64,000 nucleotides of DNA from Rhabditoides inermis (lineage: Eukaryota > Nematoda > Chromadorea > Rhabditida > Rhabditidae). The translations under genes were made by a program, and so were the position numbers. Of the stretch, positions 21,885 to 63,340 are shown one piece after another. Each line of letters opens with the position of its first letter. The stretch's first letter is position 1. The stretch lies in the NCBI GenBank assembly GCA_963966185.1, contig CAWZYM010000102.1:275001-339000 (forward strand), read 5' to 3'. The notes under the pieces were generated by a model. The model worked only from the letters and a program-made list of their open reading frames with translations, did no database searches and had not been told where the DNA came from.

Positions 21885-23294
21885 TGCTCATAGAAGGCGA
21901 TCCGGGCACGCTCCGCGCGCCTCCACGGTTAAAGTATATCAGTAGATCAGTAATTATAAAAAAACATTGATCACTGATACTGATATGCATTTTCTCCGAC
22001 TTTTTGATCTTTTACTCTTTCGTTTGCACATAGAGGGCGCTCCGGCACGCTTCGCGCGCATCCGCGGTCAAAGTCTATCAGTATATCAGTAATAATAAGA
22101 ATATATTGATCACTGCTACTGATATGCATTTTCTCCGACTCTCTGATCGTTCACTTTCTCGTATGCACATAAAAAGCGCTTCGGCACGCTTCGCGCGCCT
22201 CCGCGGTCAAAGTCGATCAGTAGATCAGTAATACCAAGACTATATTTATCACTGCTACTGATATGCAATCTCTCCTACTCTCTGATCTTTCACTCTCTCG
22301 TATGCACATAGAAAGCGCTCCGGCACGCTTCGCGCGCCTCCGCGGTCAACGTATATCAGTAGATCAGTAATTATAAAAAATATAATGTCACTGCTACTGA
22401 TATGCATTCTCTCCTACTCTCTGATCTTTCACTCTCTCGTATGCACATAGAGGGCGCTCCGGCACGCTTCGCGCGCCTCCGCGGTCAAAGCCTATCAGTA
22501 GATAATTAAAAATAAGAATATATTGATCACTGCTACTGATATGCATTTTCTCCGACTCTCTGATCGTTCACTCTCTCGTATGCACATAGAAAGCGCTCCG
22601 GTACGCTTCGCGCGCCTCCGCGGTCAAAGCCTATCAGTAGATCAGTAATTATAATAATATACTGATCACTGATACTGATATGCCTTCTCTCCTACTCTCT
22701 GATCTTTTACTCTCTCGTACACACATAGAAAGCGCTCCGGCACGCTTCGCGCGCCTCCGCGGTCAATGCCGATCAGTAGATGAGTAATTATAATAATATA
22801 TTGATCACTGTAACTGATATGCATTTTCTGCGACTATCTGATTTTTCACTCTCTCTTATGCACATAGATGGCGCTCCGTCACGCTCCGCGCGCCTCCGCG
22901 GTCAAACTATATCAATAGATCAGTAAAATAAGAATATATTGATCACTGCTACGGATATGCATTTATGCATCCGACTCTCTGATCGTTCACTTTCTATCAT
23001 GCACATAGAAAGCGCTCCGGCACGCTCCGCGCGCCTCCGCGGTCAAAGTCGATCAGTAGATCAGTAGTATTAAGAATGTATTGATCACTGCTACTGATAT
23101 GAATTTTTCACAGATCTAATATCATAAAATATCTACTCTCGCCTATGTTCATAGATAGCCGCTCCGCGTGCCTCCGCGGTCAAATCCTATCAGTAGCTGG
23201 TTGACAATTTTTATTTATTATAGATCCAAGTATAATTTATACTTATCACTGGTATAATATTATAAAATATAAGCGAGAGAGGAAAAAGAGCAAG

Positions 23295-23343
<49 letters not shown>

Positions 23344-23390
23344 GAGAAAGAGAGAGAGAAAAAAAGAGGAAGAAGAAAGAGAGAGAGAGA

Positions 23391-23429
<39 letters not shown>

Positions 23430-24330
23430 GAAAAAGAGAGGGATGAGAAATACTGATATGCATTTTCTCCGATCTTCTGATCGTTCACTTTCTCGTATGC
23501 ACATAGAAGCGCTCCGGCACGCTTCGCGCGCCTTCGCGGTCAAAGCCGATCAGTATATCTGTGATAGTAAGAATATATATAGATCACTGCTTCTGATATG
23601 AATTTTCTCCGACTCTCTGATCGTTCACTTTCTATGCACATAGAAAGCGCTCCGGCACGCTTCGCGCGCCTCCGCGGTCAAAGTATATCAGTAGATCAGT
23701 AATAGTAAGAATATATTGATCACTGCTTCTGATATGAATTTTTCTCCGACTCTCTGATCGTTCACTTTCTATGCACATAGAAAGCGCTCCGGCACGCTTC
23801 GCGCGCCTCCGCGGTCAAAGTATATCAGTAGATCAGTAATAGTAAGAATATAATTATCACTGCTACTGATATGCATTTTATCCGACTCTCTGATCGTTCA
23901 CTTTCTCGTATGCACATAGAAAGCGCTCTGGCACGCTTCGCGCGCCTCCGCGGTGAACGTATATCAGTAGATCAGTAAAAATAAGAATATATTAATCACT
24001 GCTACTGATATGCATTTTCTTTGACTCTCTGATCGTTCACTTTCTCGTATGCACATAGAAGGCGCTCCGGCACGCTTCGCGCGCCTCCGCGGTCAAAGCC
24101 GATCAGTAGATCAGTAATTATAATAATACATTGATGCATTGATCACTGATACTGATATGCATTTTCTCCGACTCTTTGATTTTTTTACTCTTTCGTATGC
24201 ACATAGAAGGCGCTCCGGCACGCTTCGAGCGCCTCCGCGGTCAAAGCCGATCAGTTTATCAGTAATTATAATAAAACATTGCACATAGAAAGCGCTCCGG
24301 CACACTCCGCGGTAAAAGCCTATCAGTACT
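21885..24330 (-). repeat. 139-bp satellite array in E0
   Basis: About 17 monomers of roughly 139 bp. Each has TACTGATATGCATTTTCTCC, CTCTGATC, TCGTATGCACATAGAAAG, a GC-rich core GCTCCGGCACGCTTCGCG and TATCAGTAGATCAGTAAT. An internal GA tract (about 23273-23440) splits the array; satellite resumes directly after it. Confidence 0.95.
23273..23440 (+). repeat. GA microsatellite inside the 139-bp array
   Basis: Nearly pure GA tract with a few GAC and GAAAAA interruptions. It is preceded by the same junction sequence (CTGGTTGACA-like, then ATAATATTATAAAATATAAG) that elsewhere marks the end of an array. Confidence 0.9.
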
Positions 24331-26957: not shown

Positions 26958-27011
26958 TATTTTTTTGCATTTTTAGTAAAATGGGTTTTAAACTGCTGTT
27001 AAATGCTCCAG

Positions 27012-27377: not shown

Positions 27378-27389
27378 AAAATTAGTTTT

Positions 27390-37929: not shown

Positions 37930-38211
37930 TCGGGTGTAAGTGTCAAATGCCCTATGGTTTCCGCACTTTTTGTCCGTCCGTCCATCGCTCTACCGCGCCA
38001 CCCACTACTCCTATCTAGCCAAACGTGACATCGATCCGATGGTCTCGGTCTCGAGATGCAGGATTCCAATTTTCAGCCCTTTATCTCTCATATTCGCGGA
38101 GCTATAAGCCTTAAAGAAAATTCGACGAAATAGCGCGTAATCAGAGAGAGTCAGACAGAAAAAAGAGCGAAATAGTGTGTCAGATGAAGAGACGGTTAGG
38201 TCGTTGAACGG

Positions 38212-38460
38212 TTGCATCGAGTAGGTCTTACAAGAACGAGTACTGCGAATCGCAGACTTCAGCTATCGAAAAACGGTTTCGACGTCACTCCTCTACACTC
38301 CATCACCTACAAATTGGCCCGTAATCTTTTTATAACTCCTCCTGGTTTCTTTTCACGAAGTGATTTAATCGAGGCGAGGCGACACCAAACAGTTGTTGCG
38401 GGCTGTTCAAGAAAACTAGGCAACCGTGTCAGATCTCCCTTTACTACAACATGCAAATAG
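38212..38460 (+). CDS. Small open frame shared by Helitron tails, unknown
   Basis: An 82-codon frame in the 5' tail of E5, in the sense direction of the element. Near-identical frames stand at 24928-25209, 52605-52853 and 59722-59970 on the minus strand, always in the sense direction. The fifth tail (E10, about 55890-56130) has a frameshift in a run of T's. The product is basic, with no recognised domain. It could be a captured exon or chance openness kept because the copies are young; I do not claim it is translated. Confidence 0.2.
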   Translation: MHRVGLTRTSTANRRLQLSKNGFDVTPLHSITYKLARNLFITPPGFFSRSDLIEARRHQTVVAGCSRKLGNRVRSPFTTTCK

Positions 38461-38825
38461 GTGGCCACTACACTTCTACCAAAATTTGCATCTTTTTGTG
38501 ACCTCTTACGCCCGCTATCAATTAAATTCCTCTAATCGGCGCCACTTTATTGCCCCGCGACGAGAGAGTGTGGCGAGGTGAGAGTGCGCCAGCTGCCAGT
38601 CTGTCTGATGTCAGAGAAAAAGACAGTCAATTGTGCAAATGAGCGAGAACATCACCACGCACTACGAAACAGCTCACCACACTCCAACAAACTGTGCAAA
38701 TTTTATTTTCTGAGCACATACAATAAAACATTACTATATGCACTCACGTCATTCTATATTCAATCAGGGAAGTGAGGCGAGGCGAAATACTATGTAACCT
38801 CCTTTTTTCATCCAATTCCTTTGCT

Positions 38826-38908
38826 CATCTCTCTTTCTCTCTTTCTCTCTTTCTCTCTTTCTCTCTTTCTCTCTCTCTCTCTTTCTCTCTTTCTCTCCCT
38901 CTCTCCCT

Positions 38909-38954
<46 letters not shown>

Positions 38955-38981
38955 GTCTTTCTCTCTCTCGCTCTCTCTTTC

Positions 38982-39034
<53 letters not shown>
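38826..39034 (+). repeat. CT microsatellite in E5
   Basis: CT-rich tract with TTTCTCTC and TTTCGTC interruptions between the 5' tail and the satellite. This is the same position as in every satellite-bearing element of the window. Confidence 0.95.
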
Positions 39035-39036
<2 letters not shown>

Positions 39037-39520
39037 TTTATAACAAAAGACCAGTGATAACTATATATTATATTTGTATCTCTAATAAATAAAAATTGTC
39101 AACCAGCTTCTGATAGGCTTTACCGCGGAGTGTGCCGGAGCGCCCTCTATGTGCATACGAGAGAGTGAAAGATCAGAGAGTAAGAAAGAATGCATATCAG
39201 TATCAGTGTTTGATATATTATTTTAATTACTGATCTACTGATCGGCTTTGACCGCGGAGGCGCGCGAAGCGTGCCGGAGCGCTTTCTATGTGCATACGAG
39301 AAAATGAACGATCAGAGATTCGGAGAAAATTCATATCAGTAGCAGTGATCAATATATTCCTATTATCACTGATATACTGATATACTTTGACCGCGAAGGC
39401 GCGCGGAGCGTGCCGGAGCGCTTCCTATGTGCATACGAGAATGTGAACGATCAGAGAGTGGGAGAAAATGCATATCAGTAGCAGTGATCAATTTATTCTT
39501 ATTATTACTGATCTACTGAT

Positions 39521-40300
39521 AGAATTTGACCGCGGAGGCGCGCGGAGCGGCTGTCTATGATCGTAGGCGAGAGTAGATATTTTATAATATTCGATCCGTG
39601 ATAACTAATCATTGTCAACCAGCTGCTGATAGGATTTGACCACTGAGGCGCGCGGAGCGGCTGTCTGTGATCAAAGGCGAGAGTAGAGATTTTATAATAT
39701 CAGATCCGTGATAACTAATCATTGTCAACCAGATACTGATAGAATTTGACCGCTGAGGCGCGCGGAGCGGCTGTCTGTGATCAAAGGCGAGAGTAGATAT
39801 TTTATAATATTAGATCCGTGATAACTAATCATTGTCAACCAGCTACTGATAGAGTTTGACCGCTGAGGCGCGCGAAGCGGCTGTCTGTGATCAAAGGCAA
39901 GAGTAGAGATTTTATAATATTAGATCCGTGATAACTAATCATTGTCAACCAGCTACTGATAGATTTTGACCGCTGAGGCGCGCTGGGCGGCTGTCTGTGA
40001 TCAAAGGCGAGAGTAGATATTTTATAATATCAGATCCGTGATAACTAATCATTGTCAACCAGCTACTGATAGAATTTGACCGCTGAGGCGCGCGAAGCGG
40101 CTGTCTGTGATCAAAGGCGAGAGTAGATATTTTATAATATTTGAACCGTGATAACTAATCATTGGCAACCAGCTACTGATAGAATTTGACCGCAGAGGCG
40201 CGCGGAGCGGCTGTCTATGATCATAGGCGAGAGTAGATATTTTATAATATTAGATCCGTGATAACTAATCATTGTCAACCAGCTACTGATAGAATTTGAC
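39521..40300 (+). repeat. 110-bp satellite variant in E5
   Basis: About seven monomers with a 110-bp period (CTGTCT at 39551, 39661, 39771 and 39881). One half is the 139-bp monomer's TACTGATAGAATTTGACCG plus GC core. The other half (TTTTATAATATTAGATCCG, ATCATTGTCAACCAG) matches the junction that elsewhere separates the satellite from the microsatellite. Confidence 0.85.
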
Positions 40301-40329
40301 CGCAGAGGCGCGCGGAGCGTGCCGGAGCG

Positions 40330-42700
40330 CTTTCTATGTGCATACGAGAGAGTGAAAGATCAGAGAGTAGGAGAGAATTCATATCAGTATCTGTGATACA
40401 TATAGCCTTATTATTACTGATCTACTGATCGACTCTGACCGCGGAGGTGCGCGGAGCGTGCCGGAGCGCTTTCTATGTGCATACGAGAGAAAGAAAGATC
40501 AGAGAGTCGGAAAAAATTCATATCAGTAGCAGTGATCAATGCATTCTTACTATTACTGATCTACTGATATATTTTGACCGCGGAGGCGCGCGGAGCGTGC
40601 CGGAGCGCTTTCTATGTGCATACGAGAAAGTGAACGATCAGAGAGTCTGTGAAAATTTATATCAGTAGCAGTGATCAATGCATTCTTACTATTACTGATC
40701 TACTGATAGAATTTGACCGCGGAGGCGCGCGGAGCGTGCCGGAGCGCTTTCTATGTGCATACGAGAGAAAGAAAGATCAGAGAGTCGGAGAAAATTCATA
40801 TCAGTAGCAGTGATCAATGCATTCTTACTATTACTGATCTACTGATAAATTTTGACCGCGGAGGCGCGCGGAGCGTGCCGGAGCGCTTTCTATGTGCATA
40901 CGAGAAAGTGAACGATCAGAGAGTCGGAGAAAATTCATATCAGTAGCAGTGAACATCAGTAGCAGTGATCAATGCATTCTTACTATTACTGATCTACTGA
41001 TAGAATTTGACCGCGGAGGCGCGCGGAGCGTGCCGGAGCGCTTTCTATGTGCATACGAGAGAAAGAAAGATCAGAGAGTCGGAGAAAATTCATATCAGTA
41101 TCAGTGATCAATGCATTCTTACTATTACTGATCTACTGATATAATTTGACCGCGGAGGCGCGCGAAGCGTGCCGGAGCGCTTTCTAGCGCGTGAACGATC
41201 AGAGAATCGGTGAAAATTCATATCAGTAGCAGTGATCAATGCATTCTTACTATTACTGATCTACTGATAGAATTTGACCGCGGAGGCGCGCGGAGCGTGC
41301 CGGAGCGCTTTCTATGTGCATACGAGAGAAAGAAAGATCAGAGAGTCGGAAAAAATTCATATCAGTAGCAGTGATCAATGCATTCTTACTATTACTGATC
41401 TACTGATATATTTTGACCGCGGAGGCGCGCGGAGCGTGCCGGAGCGCTTTCTATGTGCATACGAGAGAAAGAAAGATCAGAGAGTCGGAGAAAATTCATA
41501 TCAGTAGCAGTGATCAATGCATTCTTACTATTACTGATCTACTGATATATTTTGACCGCGGAGGCGCGCGGAGCGTGCCGGAGCGCTTTCTATGTGCATA
41601 CGAGAAAGTGAACGATCAGAGAGTCGGAGAAAATTCATATCAGTAGCAGTGATCAATGCATTCTTACTATTACTGATCTACTGATAGAATTTGACCGCGG
41701 AGGCGCGCGGAGCGTGCCGGAGCGCTTTCTATGTGCATACGAGAGAAAGAAAGATCAGAGAGTCGGAGAAAATTCATATCAGTATCAGTGATCAATGCAT
41801 TCTTACTATTACTGATCTACTGATAGAATTTGACCGCGGAGGCGCGCGGAGCGTGCCGGAGCGCTTTCTATGTGCATACGAGAGAAAGAAAGATCAGAGA
41901 GTCGGAGAAAATTCATATCAGTAGCAGTGATCAATGCATTCTTACTATTACTGATCTACTGATATATTTTGACCGCGGAGGAGCGCGGAGCGTGCCGGAG
42001 CGCTTTCTATGTGCATACGAGAGAAAGAAAGATCAGAGAGTCGGAGAAAATTCATATCAGTAGCAGTGATCAATGCATTCTTACTATTACTGATCTACTG
42101 ATAGAATTTGACCGCGGAGGCGCGCGGAGCGTGCCGGAGCGCTTTCTATGTGCATACGAGAGAAAGAAAGATCAGAGAGTCGGAGAAAATTCATATCAGT
42201 AGCAGTGATCAATGCATTCTTACTATTACTGATCTACTGATATAATTTGACCGCGGAGGCGCGCGAAGCGTGCCGGAGCGCTTTCTATGTGCATACGAGA
42301 GAAAGAAAGATCAGAGAGTCGGATAAAATTCATATCAGTAGCAGTGATCAATGCATTCTTACTATTACTGATCTACTGATAGAATTTGACCGCGGAGGCG
42401 CGCGGAGCGTGCCGGAGCGCTTTCTATGTGCATACGAGAGAAAGAAAGATCAGAGAGTCGGAGAAAATTCATATCAGTATCAGTGATCAATGCATTCTTA
42501 CTATTACTGATCTACTGATAGAATTTGACCGCGGAGGCGCGCGGAGCGTGCCGGAGCGCCCTCCATGTGCATACGAGAGAGAATAAAATATCAGAGAGTA
42601 GCAGAAAATGCAAATCAGTATCAGTGATCATTATTGTTATTTTTATTACTGATCTACTGATATGCTCTGACAGCGGAGCGTGCCGGAGCGCCTTCTATGA
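40330..42700 (+). repeat. 139-bp satellite array in E5
   Basis: Monomers of 139 bp, confirmed by the recurrence of the same ATG at 41274, 41413, 41691, 41830, 41969, 42247, 42386 and 42525. The GC core reads GGAGGCGCGCGGAGCGTGCC in this orientation. Because 139 is not a multiple of three, repeated 77-codon frames appear in every phase; they are not genes. Confidence 0.97.
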
Positions 42701-42966
42701 GCATAGTAAATATATCTGTAGAAAAACAGTCAACCAGATACTATCAACCAGATAGACTGTGACACTTTCTAATTATTTAAAATTACTGTAAATATAAAAA
42801 GGAAATAAATAAAGATCAGTCATCTACTGGAAGACTGACAACAGCACTTCTAGCACAGCTCCTAATAGCACTTCCAGAGCACATATCAAGTCAATCTATA
42901 TATCAATCGATAGATAATTTTCTCTTCTATTTTCTACCTATATTTCTAGCGCGCGAAGCGCGCTAG

Positions 42967-46100: not shown

Positions 46101-46261
46101 CTAGCGCGCTTCGCGCGCTAGAAATATAGGTATAAAATAGAGGAGAAAATTATCTATCGATTGATATATAGATTGACTTGAAATGTGCTCTGGAAGTGCT
46201 ATTAGGAGCTGTGCTAGAAGTGCTGTGGTCAGTCTTTCAATAGATGACTGATCTTTATTTA

Positions 46262-49200
46262 TTTCCTTATTTCTGATATGCACTGATATGCATTTTCTCC
46301 GACTCTGATTTTTTACTCTTTCGTATGCACATAGAAGGCGCTCCGGCACGCTTCGCGCGCCTTCTCGGTCAAAGCCATTCTGTATATCAGTAATTATAAT
46401 AAAACATTGATCGCTGATACTGATATGCATTCTCTCCTACTCTCTGATATTTTACTTTTTCGTATGCACATAGAGGCGCTCCATCACGCTTCGCGCGCCT
46501 CCGCGGTCAAAGTCGATCAGAAGATCAGTAATAATAATAATATATTAATCACTGATACTGATATGCAATCTCTTCTACTCTCTGATCTTTTACTGTTTCG
46601 TATGCACATAGAAGGCGCTCCGGCACGCTTCGCGCGCCTCCGCGGTCAAATCCGATCAGTAGATCAGTAATTATAATAAAACATTGATCACTGATACTGA
46701 TATACATTTTCTCCGACTCTCTGATCTTTCACTTTCTCGTATGCACATAGAAAGCGCTCCGGCACGCTTCGCGCGCCTCCGCGGTCAAAGTCGATCAGTA
46801 TATCAGTAATTATAATAAAACATTTATCGCTGATACTGATATGCATTCTCTCCTACTCTCTGATATTTTACTTTTTCGTATGCACATAGAGGCGCTCCAT
46901 CACGCTTCGCGCGCCTCCGCGGTCAAAGTCGATCAGTAGATCAATAATAATAATAATATATTAATCACTGATACTGATATGCAAACTCTTCTACTCTCTG
47001 ATCTTTTACTCTTTCGTATGCACATAGAAGGCGCTCCGGCACGCTTCGCGCGCCTCCGCGGTCAAAGCCGATCAGTAGATCAGTAATTATGAAAAAAAAC
47101 ATTGATCACTGCTACTGATATGCATTCTCTCCTACTCTCTGATCTTTCACTCTCTCGTATGCACATAGAAAGCGCTCCGGCACGCTTCGCGCGCCTCCGC
47201 GGTCAAAGCCGATCAGTCAGTAATTATAATAATATACTGATCACTGATACTGATATGCCTTCTCTCCTACTCTCTGATCTTTCACTCTCTCGTATGCACA
47301 TAGAAAGCGCTCCGGCACGCTCCGCGCGCCTCCGCGTTCAAAATATATCAGTAGATCAGTAATAGTAAGAATGCATTGATCACTGCTACTGATATGAATT
47401 TTCTCCGACTCTCTGATCTTTCTTTCTCTCGTATGCACATAGAAAGCGCTCCGGCACGCTCCGCGCGCCTCCGCGTTCAAAATATATAAGTAGATCAGTA
47501 ATAGTAAGAATGCATTGATCACTGCTACTGATATGAATTTTCTCCGACTCTCTGATCTTTCTTTCTCTCGTATGCACATAGAAAGCGCTCCGGCACGCTC
47601 CGCGCGCCTCCGCGGTCAAGTTCTATCAGTAGATCAGTAATAGTAAGAATGCATTGATCACTGCTACTGATATGAATTTTCTCCGACTCTCTGATCTTTC
47701 ACTTTCTCGTATACAAATAGAAAGCGCTCCGGCACGCTCCGCGCGCCTCCGCGGTCAAATTCTATCAGTAGATCAGTAATAATAAGAATAAATATTGATC
47801 ACTGCTACTGATATGAATTTTCTCCGAATCTCTGATCTTTCACTCTCGTATGCACATAGAAAGCGCTCCGGCACGCTCCGCGCGCCTCCGCGGTCAAAAT
47901 ATATCAGTAGATCAGTAATAGTAAGAATGCATTGATCACTGCTACTGATATGAATTTTCTCCGACTCTCTGATCTTTCACTCTCTCGTATGCACATAGAA
48001 AGCGCTCCGGCACGCTCCGCGCGCCTCCGCGGTCAAAATATATCAGTAGATCAGTAATAGTAAGAATGCATTGATCACTGCTACTGATATGAATTATCTC
48101 CGACTCTCTGATCTTTCACTTTCTCGTATGCACATAGAAAGCACTCCGGCACGCTCCGCGCGCCTCCGCGGTCAAAATATATCAGTAGATCAGTAATAGT
48201 AAGAATGCATTGATCACTGCTACTGATATGAATTATCTCCTACTCTCTGATCTTTCACTCTCTCGTATGCACATAGAAAGCGCTCCGGCACGCTCCGCGC
48301 GCCTCCGCGTTCAAAATATATCAGTAGATCAGTAATAGTAAGAATGCATTGATCACTGCTACTGATATGAATTTTCTCCGACTCTCTGATCTTTCTTTCT
48401 CTCGTATGCACATAGAAAGCGCTCCGGCACGCTCCGCGCGCCTCCGCGTTCAAAATATATCAGTAGATCAGTAATAGTAAGAATGCATTGATCACTGCTA
48501 CTGATATGAATTTTCTCCGACTCTCTGATCTTTCTTTCTCTCGTATGCACATAGAAAGCGCTCCGGCACGCTCCGCGCGCCTCCGCGGTCAAGTTCTATC
48601 AGTAGATCAGTAATAGTAAGAATGCATTGATCACTGCTACTGATATGAATTTTCTCCGACTCTCTGATCTTTCACTTTCTCGTATACAAATAGAAAGCGC
48701 TCCGGCACGCTCCGCGCGCCTCCGCGGTCAAATTCTATCAGTAGATCAGTAATAATAAGAATAAATATTGATCACTGCTACTGATATGAATTTTCTCCGA
48801 ATCTCTGATCTTTCACTCTCGTATGCACATAGAAAGCGCTCCGGCACGCTCCGCGCGCCTCCGCGGTCAAAATATATCAGTAGATCAGTAATAGTAAGAA
48901 TGCATTGATCACTGCTACTGATATGAATTTTCTCCGACTCTCTGATCTTTCACTCTCTCGTATGCACATAGAAAGCGCTCCGGCACGCTCCGCGCGCCTC
49001 CGCGGTCAAAATATATCAGTAGATCAGTAATAGTAAGAATGCATTGATCACTGCTACTGATATGAATTATCTCCGACTCTCTGATCTTTCACTCTCTCGT
49101 ATGCACATAGAAAGCGCTCCGGCACGCTCCGCGCGCCTCCGTGGTCAAATTCTATCAGTAGATCAGTAATAATAAGAATAAATATTGATCACTGCTACTG

Positions 49201-51510
49201 ATATGAATTTTCTCCGAATCTCTGATCTTTCACTCTCGTATGCACATAGAAAGCGCTCCGGCACGCTCCGCGCGCCTCCGCGGTCAAAATATATCAGTAG
49301 ATCAGTAATAGTAAGAATGCATTGATCACTGCTACTGATATGAATTTTCTCCGACTCTCTGATCTTTCACTCTCTCGTATGCACATAGAAAGCGCTCCGG
49401 CACGCTCCGCGCGCCTCCGCGGTCAAAATATATCAGTAGATCAGTAATAGTAAGAATGCATTGATCACTGCTACTGATATGAATTATCTCCGACTCTCTG
49501 ATCTTTCACTTTCTCGTATGCACATAGAAAGCGCTCCGGCACGCTCCGCGCGCCTCCGCGGTCAAAATATATCAGTAGATCAGTAATAGTAAGAATGCAT
49601 TGATCACTGCTACTGATATGAATTATCTCCGACTCTCTGATCTTTCACTCTCTCGTATGCTCATAGAAAGCGCTCCGGCACGCTTCGCGCGCCTCCGCGG
49701 TCAAAGCCGATCAGTCAGTAATTATAATAATATACTGATCACTGATACTGATATGCCTTCTCTCCTACTCTCTGATCTTTCACTCTCTCGTATGCACATA
49801 GAAAAGCGCTCCGGCACGCTCCGCGCGCCTCCGCGTTCAAAATATATCAGTAGATCAGTAATAGTAAGAATGCATTGATCACTGCTACTGATATGAATTT
49901 TCTCCGACTCTCTGATCTTTCTTTCTCTCGTATGCACATAGAAAGCGCTCCGGCACGCTCCGCGCGCCTCCGCGTTCAAAATATATCAGTAGATCAGTAA
50001 TAGTAAGAATGCATTGATCACTGCTACTGATATGAATTTTCTCCGACTCTCTGATCTTTCTTTCTCTCGTATGCACATAGAAAGCGCTCCGGCACGCTCC
50101 GCGCGCCTCCGCGGTCAAGTTCTATCAATAGATCAGTAATAGTAAGAATGCATTGATCACTGCTACTGATATGAATTTTCTCCGACTCTCTGATCTTTCA
50201 CTTTCTCGTATACAAATAGAAAGCGCTCCGGCACGCTCCGCGCGCCTCCGCGGTCAAATTCTATCAGTAGATCAGTAATAATAAGAATAAATATTGATCA
50301 CTGCTACTGATATGAATTTTCTCCGAATCTCTGATCTTTCACTCTCGTATGCACATAGAAAGCGCTCCGGCACGCTCCGCGCGCCTCCGCGGTCAAAATA
50401 TATCAGTAGATCAGTAATAGTAAGAATGCATTGATCACTGCTACTGATATGAATTTTCTCCGACTCTCTGATCTTTCACTCTCTCGTATGCACATAGAAA
50501 GCGCTCCGGCACGCTCCGCGCGCCTCCGCGGTCAAAATATATCAGTAGATCAGTAATAGTAAGAATGCATTGATCACTGCTACTGATATGAATTTTCTCC
50601 GACTCTCTGATCTTTCACTCTCTCGTATGCACATAGAAAGCGCTCCGGCACGCTCCGCGCGCCTCCGCGGTCAAAATATATCAGTAGATCAGTAATAGTA
50701 AGAATGCATTGATCACTGCTACTGATATGAATTATCTCCGACTCTCTGATCTTTCACTTTCTCGTATGCACATAGAAAGCGCTCCGGCACGCTCCGCGCG
50801 CCTCCGCGGTCAAAATATATCAGTAGATCAGTAATAGTAAGAATGCATTGATCACTGCTACTGATATGAATTATCTCCGACTCTCTGATCTTTCTTTCTC
50901 TCGTATGCACATAGAAAGCGCTCCGGCACGCTCCGCGCGCCTCCGCGGTCAAAATATATCAGTAGATCAGTAATAGTAAGAATGCATTGATCACTGCTAC
51001 TGATATGAATTATCTCCGACTCTCTGATCTTTCTATTTCTCGTAGGCACATAGAAAGCGCTCCGGCACGCTCCGCGCGCCTCCGCCGTCAAAATATATCA
51101 GTAGATCAGTAATAGTAAGAATGCATTGATCACTGCTACTGATATGAATTTTCTCCGACTCTCTGATCTTTCTATTTCTCGTAGGCACATAGAAAGCGCT
51201 CCGGCACGCTCCGCGCGCCTCCGCGGTCCAATTCTATCAGTAGATCAGTAATAGTAAGAATGCATTGATCACTGCTACTGATATGAATTTTCTCCGACTC
51301 TTTGATCTTTTACTCTATCGTATGCCTTTAGAGGACGCTCCGGCACGCTACGCGCGCCTCCGCGGTCAAAGCCGATCAGTAGATCAGTAATTATAATAAT
51401 ATATTGAACACTGATACTGATATGCATTCTCTCCTACTCTCTGATCTTTCACTCTCTCGTATGCTCATAGAGGGCGCTCCGGCACACTCCGCGGTAAAAG
51501 CCTATCTGTA
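46262..51510 (-). repeat. 139-bp satellite array in E9
   Basis: About 38 monomers. Variants recur in order: a monomer with TCGTATACAAATAG stands at about 47705, 48677 and 50205, spacings close to 7 and 11 monomers. This indicates higher-order amplification inside the element. Confidence 0.97.
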
Positions 51511-51601
51511 GCTGGTTGACAATTTTTATTTATTAGAGATACAAATATACTTTATAGTTATTACTGGTATTATATTATAAAATTTAAGCGAGCGAGAGAG
51601 A

Positions 51602-51642
<41 letters not shown>

Positions 51643-51776
51643 AGAGAGAGAAAGAGAGTGGGATGAGCAGCTGGTTGACAATTATTATTTATTTTAGATC
51701 CCAGTAGACTTCATAGTTATCAATAATCTAAAATCATAATATATAAGAGAGAGATAGAGGAAGAGAGGGAGAGAGG

Positions 51777-51822
<46 letters not shown>

Positions 51823-51832
51823 TGAGAAGAGA
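51511..51832 (+). repeat. Array-end junctions with GA microsatellites in E9
   Basis: Two successive copies of the CTGGTTGACAATT junction, each followed by a GA tract (about 51588-51660 and 51745-51820). Confidence 0.85.
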
Positions 51833-52235
51833 TCAATCAATCAATCAATCAATCAATCGTTTATCCGGAATCGTTATATCTGAATATGACAACACAATCA
51901 TAATGATATGGAGCATACAGTAGTGCCTAAGATGCTAGATACATAATAGGCTAACGCCGGGGAAAGACAGCTAGGCTGACAAGGTTAGTGGTGGGAAGAC
52001 GATACTTGATCGATAATCATTCCTGGACCATTAGAGTACCATTCTTGACGTGAAGAGCTCCGAGGCTTCCTTTGCTTCCATGCCAATTATTATCTCCTCG
52101 CGCCATAGCTGCTTCCACATGAGGATACTTCCCGCCGCCTCACTGGTGACTCGGGAAGGATTCTTGTCGATGACCGAACATTCGGCGGCGGTGGGGCAAA
52201 ATGAGGACCCGACCGCACGCCGCGGGGAAAAGAAG
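51833..52235 (-). mobile_element. 5'-truncated non-LTR retrotransposon 3' end
   Basis: A segment absent from the other tails begins (plus strand) with TCAATCAATCAATCAATC and GTTTATCC. On the minus strand this is a 3' end AATAAACGATTGATTG-like with a (TTGA)n tail. Upstream the minus strand is open for over 60 codons (WREEIIIGMEAKEASELF region) until a stop at about 52038, consistent with the end of a non-LTR ORF2 followed by a 180-bp untranslated region. The clade is not identified. Confidence 0.5.
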
Positions 52236-53389
52236 AAGAAGAGAGGGATAAGTAAAGAAGAGAGATGAGAAAAGGAGGTTACATAGTATTTCGCCTCGCC
52301 TCACTTCTATGATTGAATATAGAATGACGTGAGTGCATATAGTATTGTTTTATTGTATGTGCTCAGAAAATAGTTTGTTGGAGTGTGGTGAGCTGTTTCG
52401 TAGTGCATGGTGATACTCTCGCTCATTTGCACAATTGACTGTCTCTTTCTCTGACATCAGACAGACTGGCAGCTGGCGCACTCTCACCTCGCCACACTCT
52501 CTCGTCGCGGGGCAATAAAACGACGTCGATTAGAGGAATTTAATTGATTGCAGGCGTCAGAGGTCACAAAAAAATGCGAATTTTGGTAGAAGTGTAGTGG
52601 CCACCTATTTGCATGTTGTAGTAAAGGGAGACCTTACACGATTGCCTAGTTTTCTTGAACAGCCCGCGACAACTGTTTGGTGTCGCCTCGCCTCGACTAA
52701 ATCACTTCGTGAAAGGAAACCAGGAAGATTTATAAAAAGATTACGGGCAGATTTGTAGGTGAGGGAGTGTAGAGGAGTGACGTCGAAACCGTTTCTCGAT
52801 AGCTGAAGTCTACGATTCGCAGTACTCGTTCTTGTAAGGTCTACTCGCCGCACACGATTTGCCAGTGACCCGTCTCTTCATCTGACACACTATTTCGCCG
52901 CTTTTGTGTCTGACTCTCTCTGATTACGCGCTATTTCGTCGGACCTTCTTGAGCTTATAGCTCCGCGGATATGAGAGATAAAGATCTGAAAATTGGAATC
53001 CTGCATCTCGGGACCGAGACCATCGGATCGATGTCACGTTTGGCTAGATAGGAGTAGTGGGTGGCGCGGTAGAGCGATGTATGGACAGACACCATAGGGC
53101 ATTTTACACATACTAGCGACTAGCGCGCTTCGCGCGCTAGAAATATACGTGTAAAAAAGAGGAGAAAATTATCTATCGATTGATATATAGATTGACTTGA
53201 TATGTGCTCTGGAAGTGCTATTAGGATCTGTGCTAGAAGTGCTGTTGTCAGAGTATTCCGGTAGATGATTGATCTTTATTTATTTCCTGATTTTTTTTAT
53301 TTTTTTTCAGTAATTTCAAATAAATAGAAAGTGTCACAGTCTATCAGTATCTGGTTGATACTATCTTGACTGCTTTTCTACAGATAATA

Positions 53390-54830
53390 TTATTACTATG
53401 CTCATAGAAGGCGCTCCGGCACGCTTCGCGGTCGAAGCTGATCAGTAGATCAGTGATTATAATAATATGGTGATCACTGATACTGATATTCATTATATCC
53501 TACTCTCTGGAATTTTACTCTTTCGTATGCACATAGAGGGCGCTCCGGCACGCTTCGCGCGCCTCCGCGGTCAAAGTATATCAGTAGATCAGAAAAAAAC
53601 AAGAATATATTGATCACTGCGGCGCGGTCAAAGCCGATCAGTAGATCAGTAATTATAATAATATATTAATCACTGATAATGATATACAATCTCTTTTACT
53701 CTCTGATGTTTTACTCTTTCGTATGCACAGAGAAGTCGCTCCGGCACGCTTCGCGCGCCTCCGCGGTCAAAGCCGATCAGTATATCAAAAATTATAATAA
53801 TATATTAATCACTGATAATGATATACAATCTCTTCTACCTTCTGATATTTTACTCTTTCGTATGCACTTAGAAGGCGCTCCGGCACGCTTCGCGCGCCTC
53901 CGCGGTCAAAGCCGATCAGTATATCAGTAATTATAATAATATATTAATCACTGATAATGATATACAATCTCTTCTACTCTCTGATATTTCACTCTCTCGT
54001 TTGCACATAGAAAGCGCTCCGGCACGCTCCGCGCGCCTCCGCGGTCAAAGTCGATCAGTAGATCAGTAATAATGAGACTATATTGATCACTGCTACTGAT
54101 ATGCATTTTCTCCGACTCTCTGATCTTTTACTCTCTCGTATGCACATGGAGGGCGCTCCGGCACGCTCCGCGCGCCTCCGCGGTCAAAGCCGATCAGTAG
54201 ATCAGTAATTATAATATTACATTGATCACTGATACTGATATGCATTTTCTCCTACTCTCTGATATCTCACTCTCTCGTTTGCACATAGAAAGCGCTCCGG
54301 CACGCTCCGCGCGCCTCCGCGGTCAAAGTCGATCAGTAGATCAGTAATAATGAGACTATATTGATCACTGCTACTGATATGCATTTTCTCCGACTCTCTG
54401 ATCTTTTACTCTCTCGTATGCACATGGAGGGCGCTCCGGCACGCTCCGCGCGCCTCCGCGGTCAAAGCCGATCAGTAGATCAGTAATTATAATAATACAT
54501 TGATCACTGCTACTTATATGCAATTCTCCGACTCTCTGATATTTTACTTTCTCGTATGCACAAAGAAAGCGCTCCGGCACGCTTCGCGCGCTTCAGCGGT
54601 CAAATTCTATCAGTAGCTGGTTGACAATGATTAGTTATCACGTATCAAATGTTATAAAATCTCTACTCTCGCCTTTGATCACAGACAGCCGCTCCGCGCG
54701 CCTCAGCGGTCAAATTCTATCTTTTCTCGTATGCACATAGAAAGCGCTCCGGAACGCTCCGCGCGCCTCCGCGGTCAAAGTCGATCAGTAGATCAGTAAT
54801 AATAAAAATATGTTGATGAGTTATCACGGA
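53390..54830 (-). repeat. 139-bp satellite array in E10
   Basis: About ten monomers, including truncated ones near 53620 and a 110-bp-type unit at about 54590-54720. Confidence 0.95.
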
Positions 54831-54911
54831 TCTAATTTTATAGAATCTCTAGTCTCGCCTTTGAATCTCGCCTTTGAATTTTATAGAATCTCTAGTCTCG
54901 CCTCTCTAGTC

Positions 54912-55130
54912 TCGCCACGGAACGTTTTCTAGGGGGGTGGTGGCGCGCACCGGCTGCCCCCAGCAGACAGGAGGTGCACAATCCGCACTGCCTGTGGATT
55001 GCACTGATATCGTTTAGATCGCGTGCTCTGCCGTGCGCACCGTAGTGTTGTGGTTAGCGATTGCGTCCGTTGAGACACATGGCTCGAGTTCGGTTCCGGC
55101 TGGAGGCAAACGTTTTGTAATATATGATTT
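54912..55130 (+). mobile_element. tRNA-derived SINE-like element
   Basis: A tRNA-like stretch (about 55036-55110) has box A-like TGGTTAGCG and box B-like GAGTTCGGTTCC. It is preceded by GC-rich DNA of unknown origin. Too diverged to be a functional tRNA gene. Confidence 0.45.
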
Positions 55131-55313
55131 TACATAGAAATGACATTGGAATTGTAAATTTTTCCATCAGCATTACCTAAACTCTTTTTTGCAAATTTTA
55201 TACAATTTTGGACTCAACAAGGTGGGTGAACTGTTGGATTTCTTTTAAAAAAATGTTTTGTGTTTCATGTTAATGTAGATAGATTTATATGAAATCCAAT
55301 AAAAGTACATTTA

Positions 55314-55613
55314 TTATCTTTTAAAAGGACTTCCGTAAGAGAAGAGTTTGTGTTACTCAACGTAATGCAACAAAAGCTCATGCATTTTATCAATCGAAAT
55401 AGTACACAAACCTGTTCCAATAGTTCAACAAGTTATATATAATCGATCGGATACCGAAATCAATTTCCCGACATACAACATTCGCTCGCATTAGTTTTTA
55501 TTGAAGAAAGAGCAGGTTTGTTTACTATTTCGATTGATAAAATGCATGAGCTTTTGTTGCATTACGTTGAGTAACACAAACTCTTCTCTTACGGAAGTCC
55601 TTTTAAAAGATAA
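55314..55613. mobile_element. MITE with 101-bp inverted repeats
   Basis: Arms 55314-55414 and 55513-55613 are reverse complements with one mismatch. Ends TTATCTTTTAAAAGGACTTC are shared with the MITE at 33274, so the two belong to one family although their interiors differ. Confidence 0.85.
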
Positions 55614-56659
55614 ATTGTATTGTATTTGCTCAGAATATAGATTTTGCGCAGTTTGTGTGGTGAGCTGTTTCGTAGTGCATGGTGTTGTTCTCGCTCATTT
55701 GCACAATTTACTGTTTCTTTCTCTGACATCAGACAGACTGGCAGCTGGCGCACTCTCACCTCGCCACACTCTCTCGTCGCGGGGCAATAAAGTGGCGTCG
55801 ATTAGAGGAATTTAATTGATAGCGGGCGTCAGAGGTCACAAAAAGATGCAAATTTTGGTAGAAGTGTAGTGGCCACCTATTTGCATGTTGTAGTAAAGGG
55901 AGATCTGACACGGTTGCCTAGTTTTCTTGAACAGCCCGCGACAATTGTTTGGTGTCGCCTCGCCTCGATTGAATCACTTCGTGAAAAAAAAACCAAGAGG
56001 AGTTATAAAAAGATAACGGGCCAATTTGTAGGTGAGGGAGTGTAGAGGAGTGACGTCGAAACCATTTTTCGATAGCTGAAGTCTGCGATTCGCAGTACTC
56101 GTTCTTGTGAGGCCTACTCGATGCAACCGTTCAACGACCTAACCGTCTCCTCGCCTCACACACTATTTCGCCTGTTTTCTGTCTGACTCTCTCTGATTAC
56201 ACGCTATTTCGTCGGACTTTCTGGAGCTTATAGCTCCGCGGATATGAGAGATAAAGGGCTGAAAATTGGAATCCTGCATCTCGGCACCGAGACCATCGGA
56301 TCGATGTCACGTTTGGCTAGATAGGAGTAGTGGCTGGCGCGGTAGAGCGATGGACGGACGGAAACCATAGGGCATTTTGCACAGCCAGGCGCAGCGGGCG
56401 CTGCGACTAGCGCGCTTCGCGCGCTAGAAATATAGGTATAAAATAGAGGAGAAAATTATCTATCGATTGTTATATATATTGACTTGATATGTGCTCTGGA
56501 AGTGCTATTAGGAGCTGTGCTAGAAGTGCTGTTTTCAGTCTTCCAGTAGATGACTGATCTTTTTCATTTCCTTTTTTTATTTTCAGTAATTTTAAATAAT
56601 TAGAACGTGTCACAGTCTATCTGGTTGATAGTATCTTCTTGACTGCTTTCCTGTTATAT

Positions 56660-57295
56660 TTACTATGCTCATAGAAGGCGCTCCGGCACGCTCCGCGGTC
56701 ATAGCCTATGAGTATTTCACTAATAAAAATAATAATAAAATGATCACTGATACTGATATGCACTTTCTCCTACTCTTTGATATTTTACTCTCTCGTATGC
56801 ACATAGAGGGCGCTCCGGCACGCTTCGCGCGCCTCCGCGGTCAAAGTCGATCAGTAGATCAGTAATTATGATAATTTATTAATCACTGATACTGATATAG
56901 AATCTATTCTACTCTCTGAGTAGCTGGTTGATAATTTTTGATTCTCGCGCTTCGAGATGCAGCCGAAGACTATCGGTATATGAGTGATAAATATGTTATA
57001 ACTAAACTACACTTTTCGTTTCTCCGCTTCTCTCTCTCTCTCTCTCTCTCGCTCTCTCTCCTTTGCTCTAGAAGGCGCTCCGGCACGCTTCGCGCGCTTC
57101 CGCGGTCAAAGCCGATCAGTAGATCAGTAATTATAATAACATTTTTATCACTGCTACTGATATGCGTTTTCTCCTACTCTCTGATATTTTACTCTTTCGT
57201 ATGCACATGAAGAGCGCTCCGAGATGCAGCCGAAGACAATCGGTATATGAGTGATAACTATGTCATAACTAAACTACACTTTCCGTTTCTCCGCT

Positions 57296-57327
<32 letters not shown>

Positions 57328-59110
57328 TCTCTCTCTTTCTCTCTGTCTCTCTGTCTCTCTGTCTCTTTCTGTCTCTTTCTCTCTCTCCTTTGCTCTAGAA
57401 GGCGCTCCGGCACGCTTCGCGCGCCTCCGCGGTCAAAGCCGATCAGTAGATCAGTAATTATAATTATTTATTGATCACTGATACTGATATGCATTTTCTC
57501 CTACTCTTTGATAAGTTACTCTCTCGTATGCACATAGAAAGCGCTCCGGCACGCTCCGCGCGCCTCCGCGGTCAAAATCGATTAGTAGATCAGTAATACT
57601 AAGACTATATTGATCACTGCTACTGATATGCATTTTCTCCGACTCTCTGATCTTTTACTTTCTCGTATACACATAGAAAGCGCTCCTGCACGCTCCGCCC
57701 CCCTCCGCGGTCAAAGTCGATCAGTAGATCAGTAATAATAAGACTATATTGATCACTGCTACTGATATGCATTTTCTCCGACTCTCTGATCTTTTACTTT
57801 CTCGTATGCACAAAGAAAGCGCTCCGGCACGCTCCGCGCGCCTCCGCGGTCAAAGTCGATCAGTAGATCAGTAATAATAAGACTATATTGATCACTGCTA
57901 CTGATATGCATTTTCTCCGACTCTCTGATCTTTTACTTTCTCGTATGCACTTAGAAAGCGCTCCGGCACGCTCCGCCCCCCTCCGCGGTCAAAGTCGATC
58001 AGTAGATCAGTAATAATAAGACTATATTGATCACTGCTACTGATATGCATTTTCTCCGACTCTCTGATCTTTTACTTTCTCGTATGCACAAAGAAAGCGC
58101 TCCGGCACGCTCCGCGCGCCTCCGCGGTCAAAGTCGATCAGTAGATCAGTAATAATAAGACTATATTGATCACTGCTACTGATATGCATTTTCTCCGACT
58201 CTCTGATCTTTTACTTTCTCGTATGCACTTAGAAAGCGCTCCGGCACGCTCCGCGCGCCTCCGCGGTCAAAGTCGATCAGTAGATCAGTAATAATAAGAC
58301 TATATTGATCACTGCTACTGATATGCATTTTCTCCGACTCTCTGATCTTTTACTTTCTCGTATGCACTTAGAAAGCGCTCCGGCACGCTCCGCGCGCCTC
58401 CGCGGTCAAAGTCGATCAGTAGATCAGTAATAATAAGACTATATTGATCACTGCTACTGATATGCATTTTCTCCGACTCTCTGATCTTTTACTTTCTCGT
58501 ATGCACTTAGCAAGCGCTCCGGCACGCTCCGCGCGCCTCCGCGGTCAAAGTCGATCAGTAGATCAGTAATAATAAGACTATATTGATCACTGCTACTGAT
58601 ATGCATTTTCTCCGACTCTCTGATCTTTTACTTTCTCGTATGCACTTAGATAGCGCTCCGGCACGCTCCGCGCGCCTCCGCGGTCAAAGTCGATCAGTAG
58701 ATCAGTAATAATAAGACTATATTGATCACTGCTACTGATATGCATTTTCTCTAACTCTTTTATCTTTCACTCTCTCGTATGCACATAGAAAGCGCTCCGG
58801 CACGCTCCGCGCGCCTCCGCGGTCAAAGTCGATCAGTAGATCAGTAATATATAATAAAACATTGATCACTGCTACTGATATGCGTTTTCTCCATTTCTCT
58901 TATCTTTTACTTTCTCGTATGCACATAGAAAGCGCTCCGGCATGCTTCGCGCGCCTCCGCCGTCAAAACCGATCAGTATATCAGTAATTATAATAATATA
59001 CTGATCACTGATACTGATATGCCTTCTCTCCTACTCTCTGATCTTTTACTCTCTCGTATGCACTCAGAATGCGTTCCGGCACACTCCGCTCCGCGGTAAA
59101 AGCCTATCAG
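56660..59110 (-). repeat. 139-bp satellite array in E11
   Basis: About 16 monomers; those from 57540 to 58770 are nearly identical to each other, a recent expansion. Confidence 0.95.
56954..57410 (+). repeat. Tandem pair of 267-bp units with CT microsatellite
   Basis: GAGATGCAGCCGAAGAC begins at 56954 and again at 57221. Each copy leads through TATGAGTGATAA and a CT tract into CTCCTTTGCTCTAGAAGG and a GC core. A composite of microsatellite and 139-bp monomer duplicated as one block. Confidence 0.8.
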
Positions 59111-59185
59111 TAGCTGGTTGACAATTTTTATTTATTAGAGATACAAATATAATTTATAGTTATCACTGGTCTCATATTATAAAAT

Positions 59186-59244
<59 letters not shown>

Positions 59245-59308
59245 GAGAGACGAAAGAAATAGCGAGAGAGAGAGAGAGAGAGAGAAAGACGAGAGAGAGA
59301 TATAAGAA

Positions 59309-59341
<33 letters not shown>

Positions 59342-60529
59342 CGAAAAAAGAGGGATGAGAAAAAGAGAGGGATGAGAAAAGAAGGTTACATAGTATTTCG
59401 CCTCGCCTCACTTCCTGATTGAATATAGAATGTCGTTAGTGCATACAGTTATATTTGTATTGTATTTGCTCAGAATATAGACTTTGCACAGTTTGTGGAG
59501 TGTGGTGAGCTGTTTCGTAGTGCATGGTGCTGTTCTCGCTCATTTGCACAATTTACTGTTTCTTTCTCTAACAGCAGACAGACTGGCAGCTGGCGCACTC
59601 TCACCTCGCCACACTCTCTCGTCGCGGGGCAATAAAACGACGTCGATTAGAGGAATTTAATTGATAGCGAGCGTCAGAGGTCACAAAAAGATGCAAATTT
59701 TGGTAGAAGTGTAGTGGCCACCTATTTGCATGTTGTAGTAAAGGGAGACCTTACACGGTTGCCTAGTTTTCTTGAACAGCCCGCGACAACTGTTTGGTGT
59801 CGCCTCGCCTCGACTAAATCACTTCGTGAAAGGAAACCAGGAGGATTTATAAAAAGATTACGGGCAGATTTGTAGGTGAGGGAGTGTAGAGGAGTGACGT
59901 CGAAACCGTTTTTCGATAGCTGAAGTCTGCGATTCGCAGTACTCGTTCTTGTAAGGTCTACTCGCCGCACCCGATTCGTCAGTGACCCGTCTCTTCATCT
60001 GACACACTATCTCGCTGCTTTTCTGTCTGACTCTCTCGGATTACGCGCTATTTCGTCGGACCTTCTTGAGCTTATAGCTCCGCGGATATGAGAGATAAAG
60101 ATCTGAAAATTGGAATCCTGCATCTCGGGACCGAGACCATCGGATCGATGTCACGTTTGGCTAGATAGGAGTAGTGGCTGGCGCGGTAGAGCGATGGACG
60201 TACGGAAACCATAGGGCATTTAGCCAGACCGGCGCAGCGGGCGCTGCGACTAGCGCGCTTCGCGCGCTAGAAATATAGGTATAAAATAGAGGAGAAAATT
60301 ATCTATCGATTGATTTATAGATTGACTTGATATGTGCTCTGGAAGTGCTATTAGGAGCTGTGCTAGAAGTGCTGTTGTCAGTCTTTCAATAGATGACTGA
60401 TCTTTATTTATTTCCCTATTTTTTTATTTTTCAGTAGTTTCAAATATTTAGAAAGTGTCACAGTTTATCAGTATCTGGTTGATAGTATCTGCTTGACTGC
60501 TTATCTACAGATGTGATATTTACTATGCT

Positions 60530-63340
60530 CATAGAAGGCGATCCGGGCACGCTCCGCGCGCCTCCACGGTTAAAGTATATCAGTATATCAGTAATTATAA
60601 TAAAACATTGATCACTGATACTGATATGCATTTTCTCCGACTTTTTGATCTTTTACTCTTTCGTTTGCACATAGAGGGCGCTCCGGCACGCTTCGCGCGC
60701 ATCCGCGGTCAAAGTCTATCAGTATATCAGTAATAATAAGAATATATTGATCACTGCTACTGATATGCATTTTCTCCGACTCTCTGATCGTTCACTTTCT
60801 CGTATGCACATAAAAAGCGCTTCGGCACGCTTCGCGCGCCTCCGCGGTCAAAGTCGATCAGTAGAGCAGTAATACCAAGACTATATTTATCACTGCTACT
60901 GATATGCATTTTCTCCAACTCTCTGATCTTTCACTCTCTCGTATGCACATAGAAAGCGCTCCGGCACGCTTCGCGCGCCTCCGCGGTCAAAGTCGATCAG
61001 TAGATCAGTAATAATGAGACTGTATTGATTACTGCTACTGATATGCATTTTCTTCGACTCTCTGATCTTTCACTTTCTCGTATGCACATAGAAAGCGCTC
61101 CGGCACGCTCCGCGCGCCTCCGCGGTCAAAGTATATCAGTAGATCAGTAATAACAAGACTATATTTATCATTGCTACTGATATGCATTTTCTCCGACTCT
61201 CTGATAGTTCACTTTCTCGTATGCACATAGAAAGCGATCCGGCACGCTTCGCGCGCCTCCGCGGTCAAATCCTATCAGTAGATCAATAATTAAAATAATA
61301 TAATTTCACTGCTACTGATATGCAATCTCTCCTACTCTCTGATCTTTCACTCTCTCGTATGCACATAGAAAGCGCTCCGGCACGCTTCGCGCGCCTCCGC
61401 GGTCAACGTATATCAGTAGATCAGTAATTATAAAAAATATAATGTCACTGCTACTGATATGCATTCTCTCCTACTCTCTGATCTTTCACTCTCTCGTATG
61501 CACATAGAAAGCGCTCCGGCACGCTTCGCGCGCCTCCGCGGTCAAAGTCGATCAGTAGATCAGTAATAATGAGACTGTATTGATTACTGCTACTGATATG
61601 CATTTTCTTCGACTCTCTGATCTTTCACTTTCTCGTATGCACATAGAAAGCGCTCCGGCACGCTCCGCGCGCCTCCGCGGTCAAAGTATATCAGTAGATC
61701 AGTAATAACAAGAATATATTGATCACTGCTACTGATATGCATTTTCTCCGACTCTCTGATCGTTCACTTTCTCGTATGCACATAAAAAGCGCTTCGGCAC
61801 GCTTCGCGCGCCTCCGCGGTCAAAGTCGATCAGTAGATCAGTAATACCAAGACTATATTTATCACTGCTACTGATATGCATTTTCTCCAACTCTCTGATC
61901 TTTCACTCTCTCGTATGCACATAGAAAGCGCTCCGGCACGCTTCGCGCGCCTCCGCGGTCAAAGTCGATCAGTAGATCAGTAATAATAAGACTGTATTGA
62001 TTACTGCTACTGATATGCATTTTCTTCGACTCTCTGATCTTTCACTTTCTCGTATGCACATAGAAAGCGCTCCGGCACGCTCCGCGCGCCTCCGCGGTCA
62101 AAGTATATCAGTAGATCAGTAATAACAAGACTATATTTATCACTGCTACTGATATGCATTTTCTCCGACTCTCTGATAGTTCACTTTCTCGTATGCACAT
62201 AGAAAGCGATCCGGCACGCTTCGCGCGCCTCCGCGGTCAAATCCTATCAGTAGATCAATAATTAAAATAATATAATTTCACTGCTACTGATATGCATTCT
62301 CTCCTACTCTCTGATCTTTCACTCTCTCGTATGCACATAGAGGGCGCTCCGGCACGCTTCGCGCGCCTCCGCGGTCAAAGCCTATCAGTAGATCAGTAAT
62401 TATAAAAAATATAATGTCACTGCTACTGATATGCATTCTCTCCTACTCTCTGATCTTTCACTCTCTCGTAAGCACATAGAGGGCGCTCCGGCACGCTTCG
62501 CGCGCCTCCGCGGTCAAAGCCGATCAGTATATCAGTAATTATAATAAAACATTGATCACTGATACTGATATGCATTTTCTCCGACTCTCTGATCGTTCAC
62601 TCTCTCGTATGCACATAGAGGGCGCTCCGGCACGCTTCGCGCGCCTCCGCGGTCAAATCCTATCAGTAGATCATTAAAAATAAGAATATACTGATCACTG
62701 CTACTGATATGCATTTTCTCCGACTCTCTGATCGTTCCCTCTCTCGTATGCACATAGAAAGCGCTCCGGTACGCTTCGCGCGCCTCCGCGGTCAAAGCCT
62801 ATCAGTAGATCAGTAATTATAATAATATACTGATCACTGATACTGATATGCCTTCTCTCCTACTCTCTGATCTTTTACTCTCTCGTACGCACATAGAAAG
62901 CGCTCCGGCACGCTTCGCGCGCCTCCGCGGTCAATGCCGATCAGTAGATGAGTAATTATAATAATATCTTGATCACTGTAACTGATATGCATTTTCTCCA
63001 ACTCTCTGATCGTTCACTCTCTCGTATGCACATAGAGGGCGCTCCGGCACGCTTCGCGCGCCTCCGCGGTCAAAGCCGATTAGTATGTCAGTAATTATAA
63101 TAATATATTGATCACTGCTACTGATATGCATTCTCTCCTACTCTCTGATCTTTTACTCTCTCGTACGCACATAAAAAGTGCTCCGGCACGCTTCGCGCGC
63201 CTCCGCGGTCAAAGTCGATCAGTAGATCAGTAATTACAATAATATTTAGATCACTGATACTGATATGCATTCTCTTCTACTGTCTGATCTTTTACTCTCT
63301 CGTATGCCCTTAGAGGGCGCTCCGGCACACTCCCTATCAG
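60530..63340 (-). repeat. 139-bp satellite array in E12
   Basis: About 20 monomers. The order of variant monomers at both ends follows that of the E0 array, with an extra block duplicated in the middle (a variant with AATACCAAGACTATATTTAT at about 60870 and again at 61845). Confidence 0.95.

Follow-up and report, generated by a model that had tools for sequence, protein, structure and literature searches.

The closest described systems are Helitrons and Helentrons, for which the comparisons made here draw on excerpts of the papers cited. In HINE/Helentron elements, tandem arrays lie between a microsatellite and a palindrome-bearing right module (PMC7492417, PMC8268682, PMC4067079). Thus, in Cg_HINE of Crassostrea gigas the left flank leads into a microsatellite, tandem repeats form the centre and the right flank bears a 3' palindrome (PMC7492417, PMC8268682), and DINE-1/HINE elements combine a microsatellite, central repeats and a 3' palindrome with clustering of the elements (PMC4067079). 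Canonical Helitrons carry a hairpin ~10-12 nt upstream of the 3' end (PMC5148889, PMC4067079). Helraiser and Helibat have TC...CTAG ends and a 3' hairpin; the Helraiser hairpin serves as a terminator, and its bypass gives new 3' ends (PMC4778049). For 3'-truncated Helitron arrays, tandem amplification after loss of the terminator was proposed by Xiong et al. 2016, as reported in the excerpt of PMC12628747. In the excerpts of the literature examined, the cause of the frequent satellite arrays in Helitrons and Helentrons is not settled.

We analyzed a window of 64,000 nucleotides from Rhabditoides inermis (assembly GCA_963966185.1, contig CAWZYM010000102.1, positions 275,001 to 339,000 of the forward strand; all coordinates below are those of the window), along with the source assembly (172.6 Mb, 599 contigs). 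The satellite-bearing family is denoted here S, and V is its copy at 37930..42966; GGA is the family of the element ending at 19771, named after its hairpin. We consider it rather probable that the satellite in this window forms the tandem array inside elements of a non-autonomous Helitron-type family, S, in which a hairpin was internalised and then amplified. The features on which the analysis is based are as follows.

17743..19771, + strand: GGA-family Helitron-type element, TC...CTAG, delimited from the sequence and both flanks
19734..19771, + strand: GGA-type terminal hairpin, with CTAG within the outer stem
21876..24328, - strand: array of S element U, with the 3' hairpin of U at 21609-21627
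37930..42966, + strand: S element V, with a TC start that abuts the CTAG of the preceding element, and a CTAG end
38828..39033, + strand: TC microsatellite of V, located 5' to the array
39105..42709, + strand: whole internal array of V, 139-bp and 110-bp units, from nhmmer matches and the sequence
39513..40319, + strand: 110-bp B units of V, 7.3 copies, 93% matches, hairpin not intact
40283..42662, + strand: 139-bp array of V, 17.1 copies, 92% matches (Tandem Repeats Finder)
42710..42945, + strand: 3' module of V, extending from the last unit up to the terminal hairpin
42946..42966, + strand: S-type terminal hairpin of V, CTAGCGCGCGAAGCGCGCTAG, flush with the element end
46101..53119, - strand: S element Z, with its array at 46281-51513
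53120..56406, - strand: S element Y, with its array at 53395-54800
56407..60249, - strand: S element X, with its array at 56657-59115
60250..63333, - strand: further S element W2, with its 3' hairpin at 60250-60270 and its array at 60521-63333, the span covering the 3' end and the array only

S elements are ordered as a 5' module, a TC microsatellite, the tandem array and a 3' module that ends in the hairpin; the genome contains 562 exact matches to CTAGCGCGCGAAGCGCGCTAG preceded by TATATTT. Array units were found within 1.5 kb upstream of the end in 30 of 30 S ends, which are not independent, several being near copies (e.g. L059/L065 and L044/L060/L063), and the last match is truncated, stopping 174 to 515 bp short of the end. 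Measured from TTCTATGAGCATAG, which lies in the last unit, the stretch up to the element end spans 269-297 bp in 26 of the 27 loci in which TTCTATGAGCATAG was found, the remaining one having 369 bp; in 3 of the 30, TTCTATGAGCATAG was not found. By eye, the sequence after the last unit is recognisably common to most S loci. Element Y also contains a long inverted repeat (~55311-55614, by eye), perhaps a small inserted transposon.

The TC...CTAG ends, which agree with the canonical Helitron1 5' TC and 3' CTRR, were found in the 17743-19771 element and in S elements V, X, Y and Z. However, the S and GGA hairpins both include the CTAG and are flush with the end, in contrast to the canonical spacing given above and to the Helraiser hairpin, which is located 11 nt upstream of the end (PMC4778049), and for this reason these elements are not filed as canonical Helitron1. 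The HINE/Helentron combination of a microsatellite, central tandem repeats and a 3' palindrome is present in V, and arrays accompany all 30 S ends. HINEs have subterminal inverted repeats, and they insert into T-rich sites (PMC4067079) instead of carrying TC...CTRR termini and entering between A and T. Because its ends are TC and CTAG, S is not classed as HINE despite the HINE-like layout. We therefore place S under neither Helitron1 nor HINE and term it Helitron-type. Compared to Cg_HINE, with its 3' module of ~60 bp, the S module of about 270-295 bp is longer and the ends are TC/CTAG; furthermore, S units carry a terminator-type hairpin, and none is mentioned for Cg_HINE monomers in the excerpts of PMC7492417 and PMC8268682.

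The first base of the 3' flank is T in 30/30 S and 30/30 GGA ends, and PF14214 (Helitron_like_N) has 80 matches in the genome at E <= 0.001, some in open frames >1,800 aa. In the one insertion represented by the 17743-19771 element, the target is a 163-bp satellite, entered between an A and a T; this long satellite spans 3937-21598 and is broken by the element. Inside the same element, GGTTCGATCC at 19186-19195 resembles a tRNA promoter B box.

In the first-pass annotation, the monomer core was read in element sense as CGCGGAGGCGCGCG-GAGCGT-GCCGGAGCGCT, with its first 14 and last 11 bases in common with the hairpin at 19734-19771, and the sequence bears out both statements. On local alignment, the 31-nt GC core of the 139-bp monomer is identical to the GGA 3'-terminal hairpin in 29 of 32 columns (score 47, compared to a maximum of 22 among 200 dinucleotide shuffles). 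Both contain a GGA/GGA internal loop, the sequence of which is not forced by pairing. When GCGCGCGAAGCGCGC was sought in the window with up to 1 mismatch, 46 matches were obtained, namely, 5 exact ones in terminal hairpins and 41 one-mismatch occurrences, GCGCGCGAAGCGTGC, in monomers; 100 shuffles gave 0 matches. The GGA terminus and the GAA-loop monomer have the same predicted fold (outer stem, GGA/GGA internal loop, 7-bp stem and a 3- or 4-nt loop), whereas for the GGA-loop monomer, the form present in the 40283-42662 array, the predicted minimum-energy fold differs from that of the terminus, with almost equal energies (-9.4 vs -9.2). The outer stem comprises 7 bp, with CTAG, in the GGA terminus and 3 bp in the monomer. 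Genome-wide, 771 matches to GGA hairpin ends were identified with up to 3 mismatches, using the last 31 bases of the 19734..19771 hairpin as the query. The terminal hairpin of the S family itself differs from the monomer hairpin: the consensus monomer is only weakly similar to the S terminus (score 19-20, reached by 14 to 35 of 200 shuffles for monomer A). These comparisons support the conclusion that the monomer core is the same kind of hairpin as those at the Helitron-type 3' ends of this genome, beyond chance. Given that the sequence and the predicted fold match beyond chance, the unit hairpin and the GGA terminal hairpin are likely to be of common descent, and this relationship may extend to terminal hairpins in certain other families. 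Terminal hairpins of other types, in which the CTAG end adjoins a new 5' end, are located at 37127, 37929 and 45189; 2 of these 3 ends have a GA/GA internal loop in a long palindrome.

The likeness of the monomer to the GGA 3' end holds for the hairpin, well above shuffles, and is absent from the adjacent sequence, an outcome that corresponds in part to what the first-pass annotation named as refuting its proposal. After removal of the hairpin, the scores of the 3'-terminal 150 bp of the GGA element and six S elements were reached by 93 to 185 of 200 shuffles against monomer A and by 10 to 174 of 200 against monomer B. Similarly, immediately upstream of the hairpins, the similarity of S to GGA was not clear of shuffles (score reached by 12 to 43 of 300). 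Against the monomer profile, 28 of 30 GGA loci matched at the hairpin, with short extensions at most, and 2 gave no match; eight further GGA loci (L001-L008) all matched at the hairpin. Among six loci inspected, longer monomer matches at L002 and L006 were rejected, the extensions being gapped and of low posterior probability, including the longest one (L002). A common hairpin by itself gives no direction and, conceivably, transposition stopped inside an array, with a monomer hairpin gaining CTAG to become a GGA-type 3' end; the excerpt of PMC4778049 documents that Helraiser and Helibat can form 3' ends de novo when an end has been bypassed or truncated. However, had the hairpin been captured out of an array, monomer sequence should have persisted on its upstream side in GGA ends, and none was found there in the 30 loci, so that this direction of events appears unlikely.

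For the comparison of units within and between elements, full-length units were used (98 of 132 matches). In four of six elements, the mean identity within the element exceeds every mean between elements (V, 0.912; X, 0.925; Z, 0.909; W2, 0.897), by a tiny margin in V (0.912 vs 0.906 with Z) and in W2 (0.897 vs 0.896 with X), whereas in U (0.849) and Y (0.853) the identity within the element does not exceed that with units of some other elements. Thus, homogenisation within elements is partial and weak. Among 291 distinct aligned units, most stem pairs are of the standard kind, the hairpin is complete in 252 and GGA/GGA is retained in 225; no compensatory double changes in the stem were detected in this set. 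The hairpin columns are slightly more conserved than the rest (0.952 vs 0.909), but some other stretches are equally conserved and, with compensatory changes lacking, selection for the stem is not demonstrated.

At the edges of the arrays, the hairpin of the first unit is shortened in V and in 5 of 6 array starts inspected (the exception is L050), and the last unit of V is shortened as well, a strict pattern for the short form matching in 11 of 30 loci. The outer units have the lowest scores in the 6 arrays of the window, in part because they are short. The 110-bp units of V are missing the 3' arm of the hairpin; the 110-bp spacing recurs in several other S loci, with 139-bp and 110-bp units mixed. 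The amplification of this 110-bp block implies that an intact hairpin is not needed for amplification. The start of the 3' module is similar to monomer B (score 27, reached by 3 of 300 shuffles) and matches neither monomer A (score reached by 78 of 300) nor the segment preceding the array (35 of 300). A hairpin-less copy of the unit at this position was considered as a candidate for the state before acquisition of the hairpin and was rejected because, to the right of the hairpin position, the match covers ~7 nt only and the bases differ between subfamilies, which makes loss of the hairpin just as likely.

Under the preferred reading, a terminator-type hairpin would have become internal, probably once, through one bypass or nested insertion; of the first-pass mechanism, one such founding internalisation is what may survive. 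The internal hairpin would then have lost the CTAG part of the outer stem, and the surrounding segment would have been amplified and partly homogenised within the element by unequal exchange or replication slippage. It might be speculated that hairpins stall rolling-circle synthesis and so promote slippage. Elements with a GGA-type end and an S-type body were not found, and neither were S elements without an array; the founding event itself is, accordingly, not seen. A more ambitious version, to which we assign a low probability, is that the unit is a decommissioned Helitron-type terminator and that such internal pseudo-terminators hold up rolling-circle synthesis and trigger slippage of the template, with replication of the transposon thereby driving the growth and spread of the satellite. 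The 3'-truncated Helitron arrays are similar to S in that tandem amplification is tied to rolling-circle replication and to the terminator, but there it is the truncated element itself that is repeated, giving many 5' ends and a single 3' end (Xiong et al. 2016, per the excerpt of PMC12628747), whereas in S a 139-bp or 110-bp segment from inside the element is repeated. In Helraiser and Helibat, bypass captures flanking DNA, and the excerpt of PMC4778049 describes no building of a satellite. Internal satellites in Helitrons and Helentrons are known, and the unusual detail is the terminator-type hairpin within the units, of which no description in Helitron satellite monomers was found in the titles and abstract openings searched, which is not proof of absence. 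The hairpin-bearing satellite offers a concrete system for asking whether hairpins promote array growth in rolling-circle transposition, and also for distinguishing a single internalisation of a terminator from repeated bypass.

The ends of these elements often carry GC-rich palindromes, and the hairpins could be alike by convergence or chance, without any common history. When the stems were fixed and the loops alone randomised, the score of 47 was reached in 8 of 20,000 sets; moreover, a score of 32 against the GAA-loop monomer is attained by two T-type ends (37127 and 37929), compared to 14 for the end at 45189, which suggests that related motifs are frequent here. In contrast, 47 was not reached once when 20,000 random hairpins of like build were tried, and 10 other GC-rich stretches of the window score just 11 to 27 on the sense strand. 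Taken together, these comparisons make a likeness without history improbable. Weighing against internalisation and amplification of a terminator-type hairpin are the unobserved founding event, the weak homogenisation, the lack of compensatory change in the stem, the above result with fixed stems and the different fold of the GGA-loop monomer.

Alternatively, rolling-circle replication might have strung together copies of a 139-bp mini-element, with every unit extending from TC to a hairpin end. Whole-element head-to-tail CTAG-T junctions are indeed abundant (47 in the window and the loci, some overlapping), and CTTTCTATG, after the monomer hairpin, is, by eye, loosely similar to CTAG-TC followed by TATG. 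However, the CTAG-TC junction itself is absent from the units, and the 139-bp and 110-bp units are intermixed, so that this origin is very unlikely.

To identify monomers ending in CTAG, the genome was searched with GGCGCGCGNAGCGTGCCGGAGCGCTAG, allowing up to 1 mismatch. Of the 51 matches, one was exact (L009) and corresponds to a deletion inside an array, whereas the other 50 have CTAT or CTTG where CTAG is expected. A longer monomer-end pattern, also with up to 1 mismatch, gave 49 matches, the single exact one at the same place in L009. Thus, apart from the L009 deletion, no monomer terminus with CTAG was detected genome-wide at up to 1 mismatch, a threshold that more diverged termini would escape. 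The scenario of the first-pass annotation, in which every monomer is a former 3' terminus and each read-through appends a new end, draws on the resemblance of the monomer core to the terminal hairpin and on the 3'-end bypass with new downstream ends documented in Helitrons (excerpt of PMC4778049), but several observations speak against it: the internal position of the array at all 30 S ends examined, where it is followed by the 3' module and a different hairpin, the lack of similarity outside the hairpin, the lack of monomers with CTAG in these searches, the degradation of the units at the 3' edge and, generally, of the outermost units, and the amplification of a unit type without an intact hairpin. 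Moreover, read-through into flanking DNA would not be expected to capture the same linker repeatedly. We regard this scenario as very improbable.

Elements in the window and at loci L039-L098 are arranged head to tail, CTAG being joined to the next TC (in the window, at 42966, 46101, 53120, 56407 and 60250), and S ends are clustered in same-strand runs. Another 5' end follows immediately in 27 of 30 cases for S ends and in 8 of 30 for GGA ends; the flanks of the other 22 GGA ends start with TC in 18 cases, TA in 2 and TT in 2. The 5' TC of an element may be a preferred target, in which case chains could grow by repeated insertion. Several other repeats were noticed in the window. A 104-bp tandem repeat rich in GTAAACAA occupies 33903-37798 and 43589-45005, in another element family, and an 8-bp GAGAGAAC repeat forms a 2-kb array at 31086-33163. 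The region 25400-29950 is retroelement-like, with minus-strand open frames at 26202-26852 and 27757-28770 between similar repeats; by eye, it is presumably a Penelope-like element with GIY-YIG and reverse-transcriptase parts.
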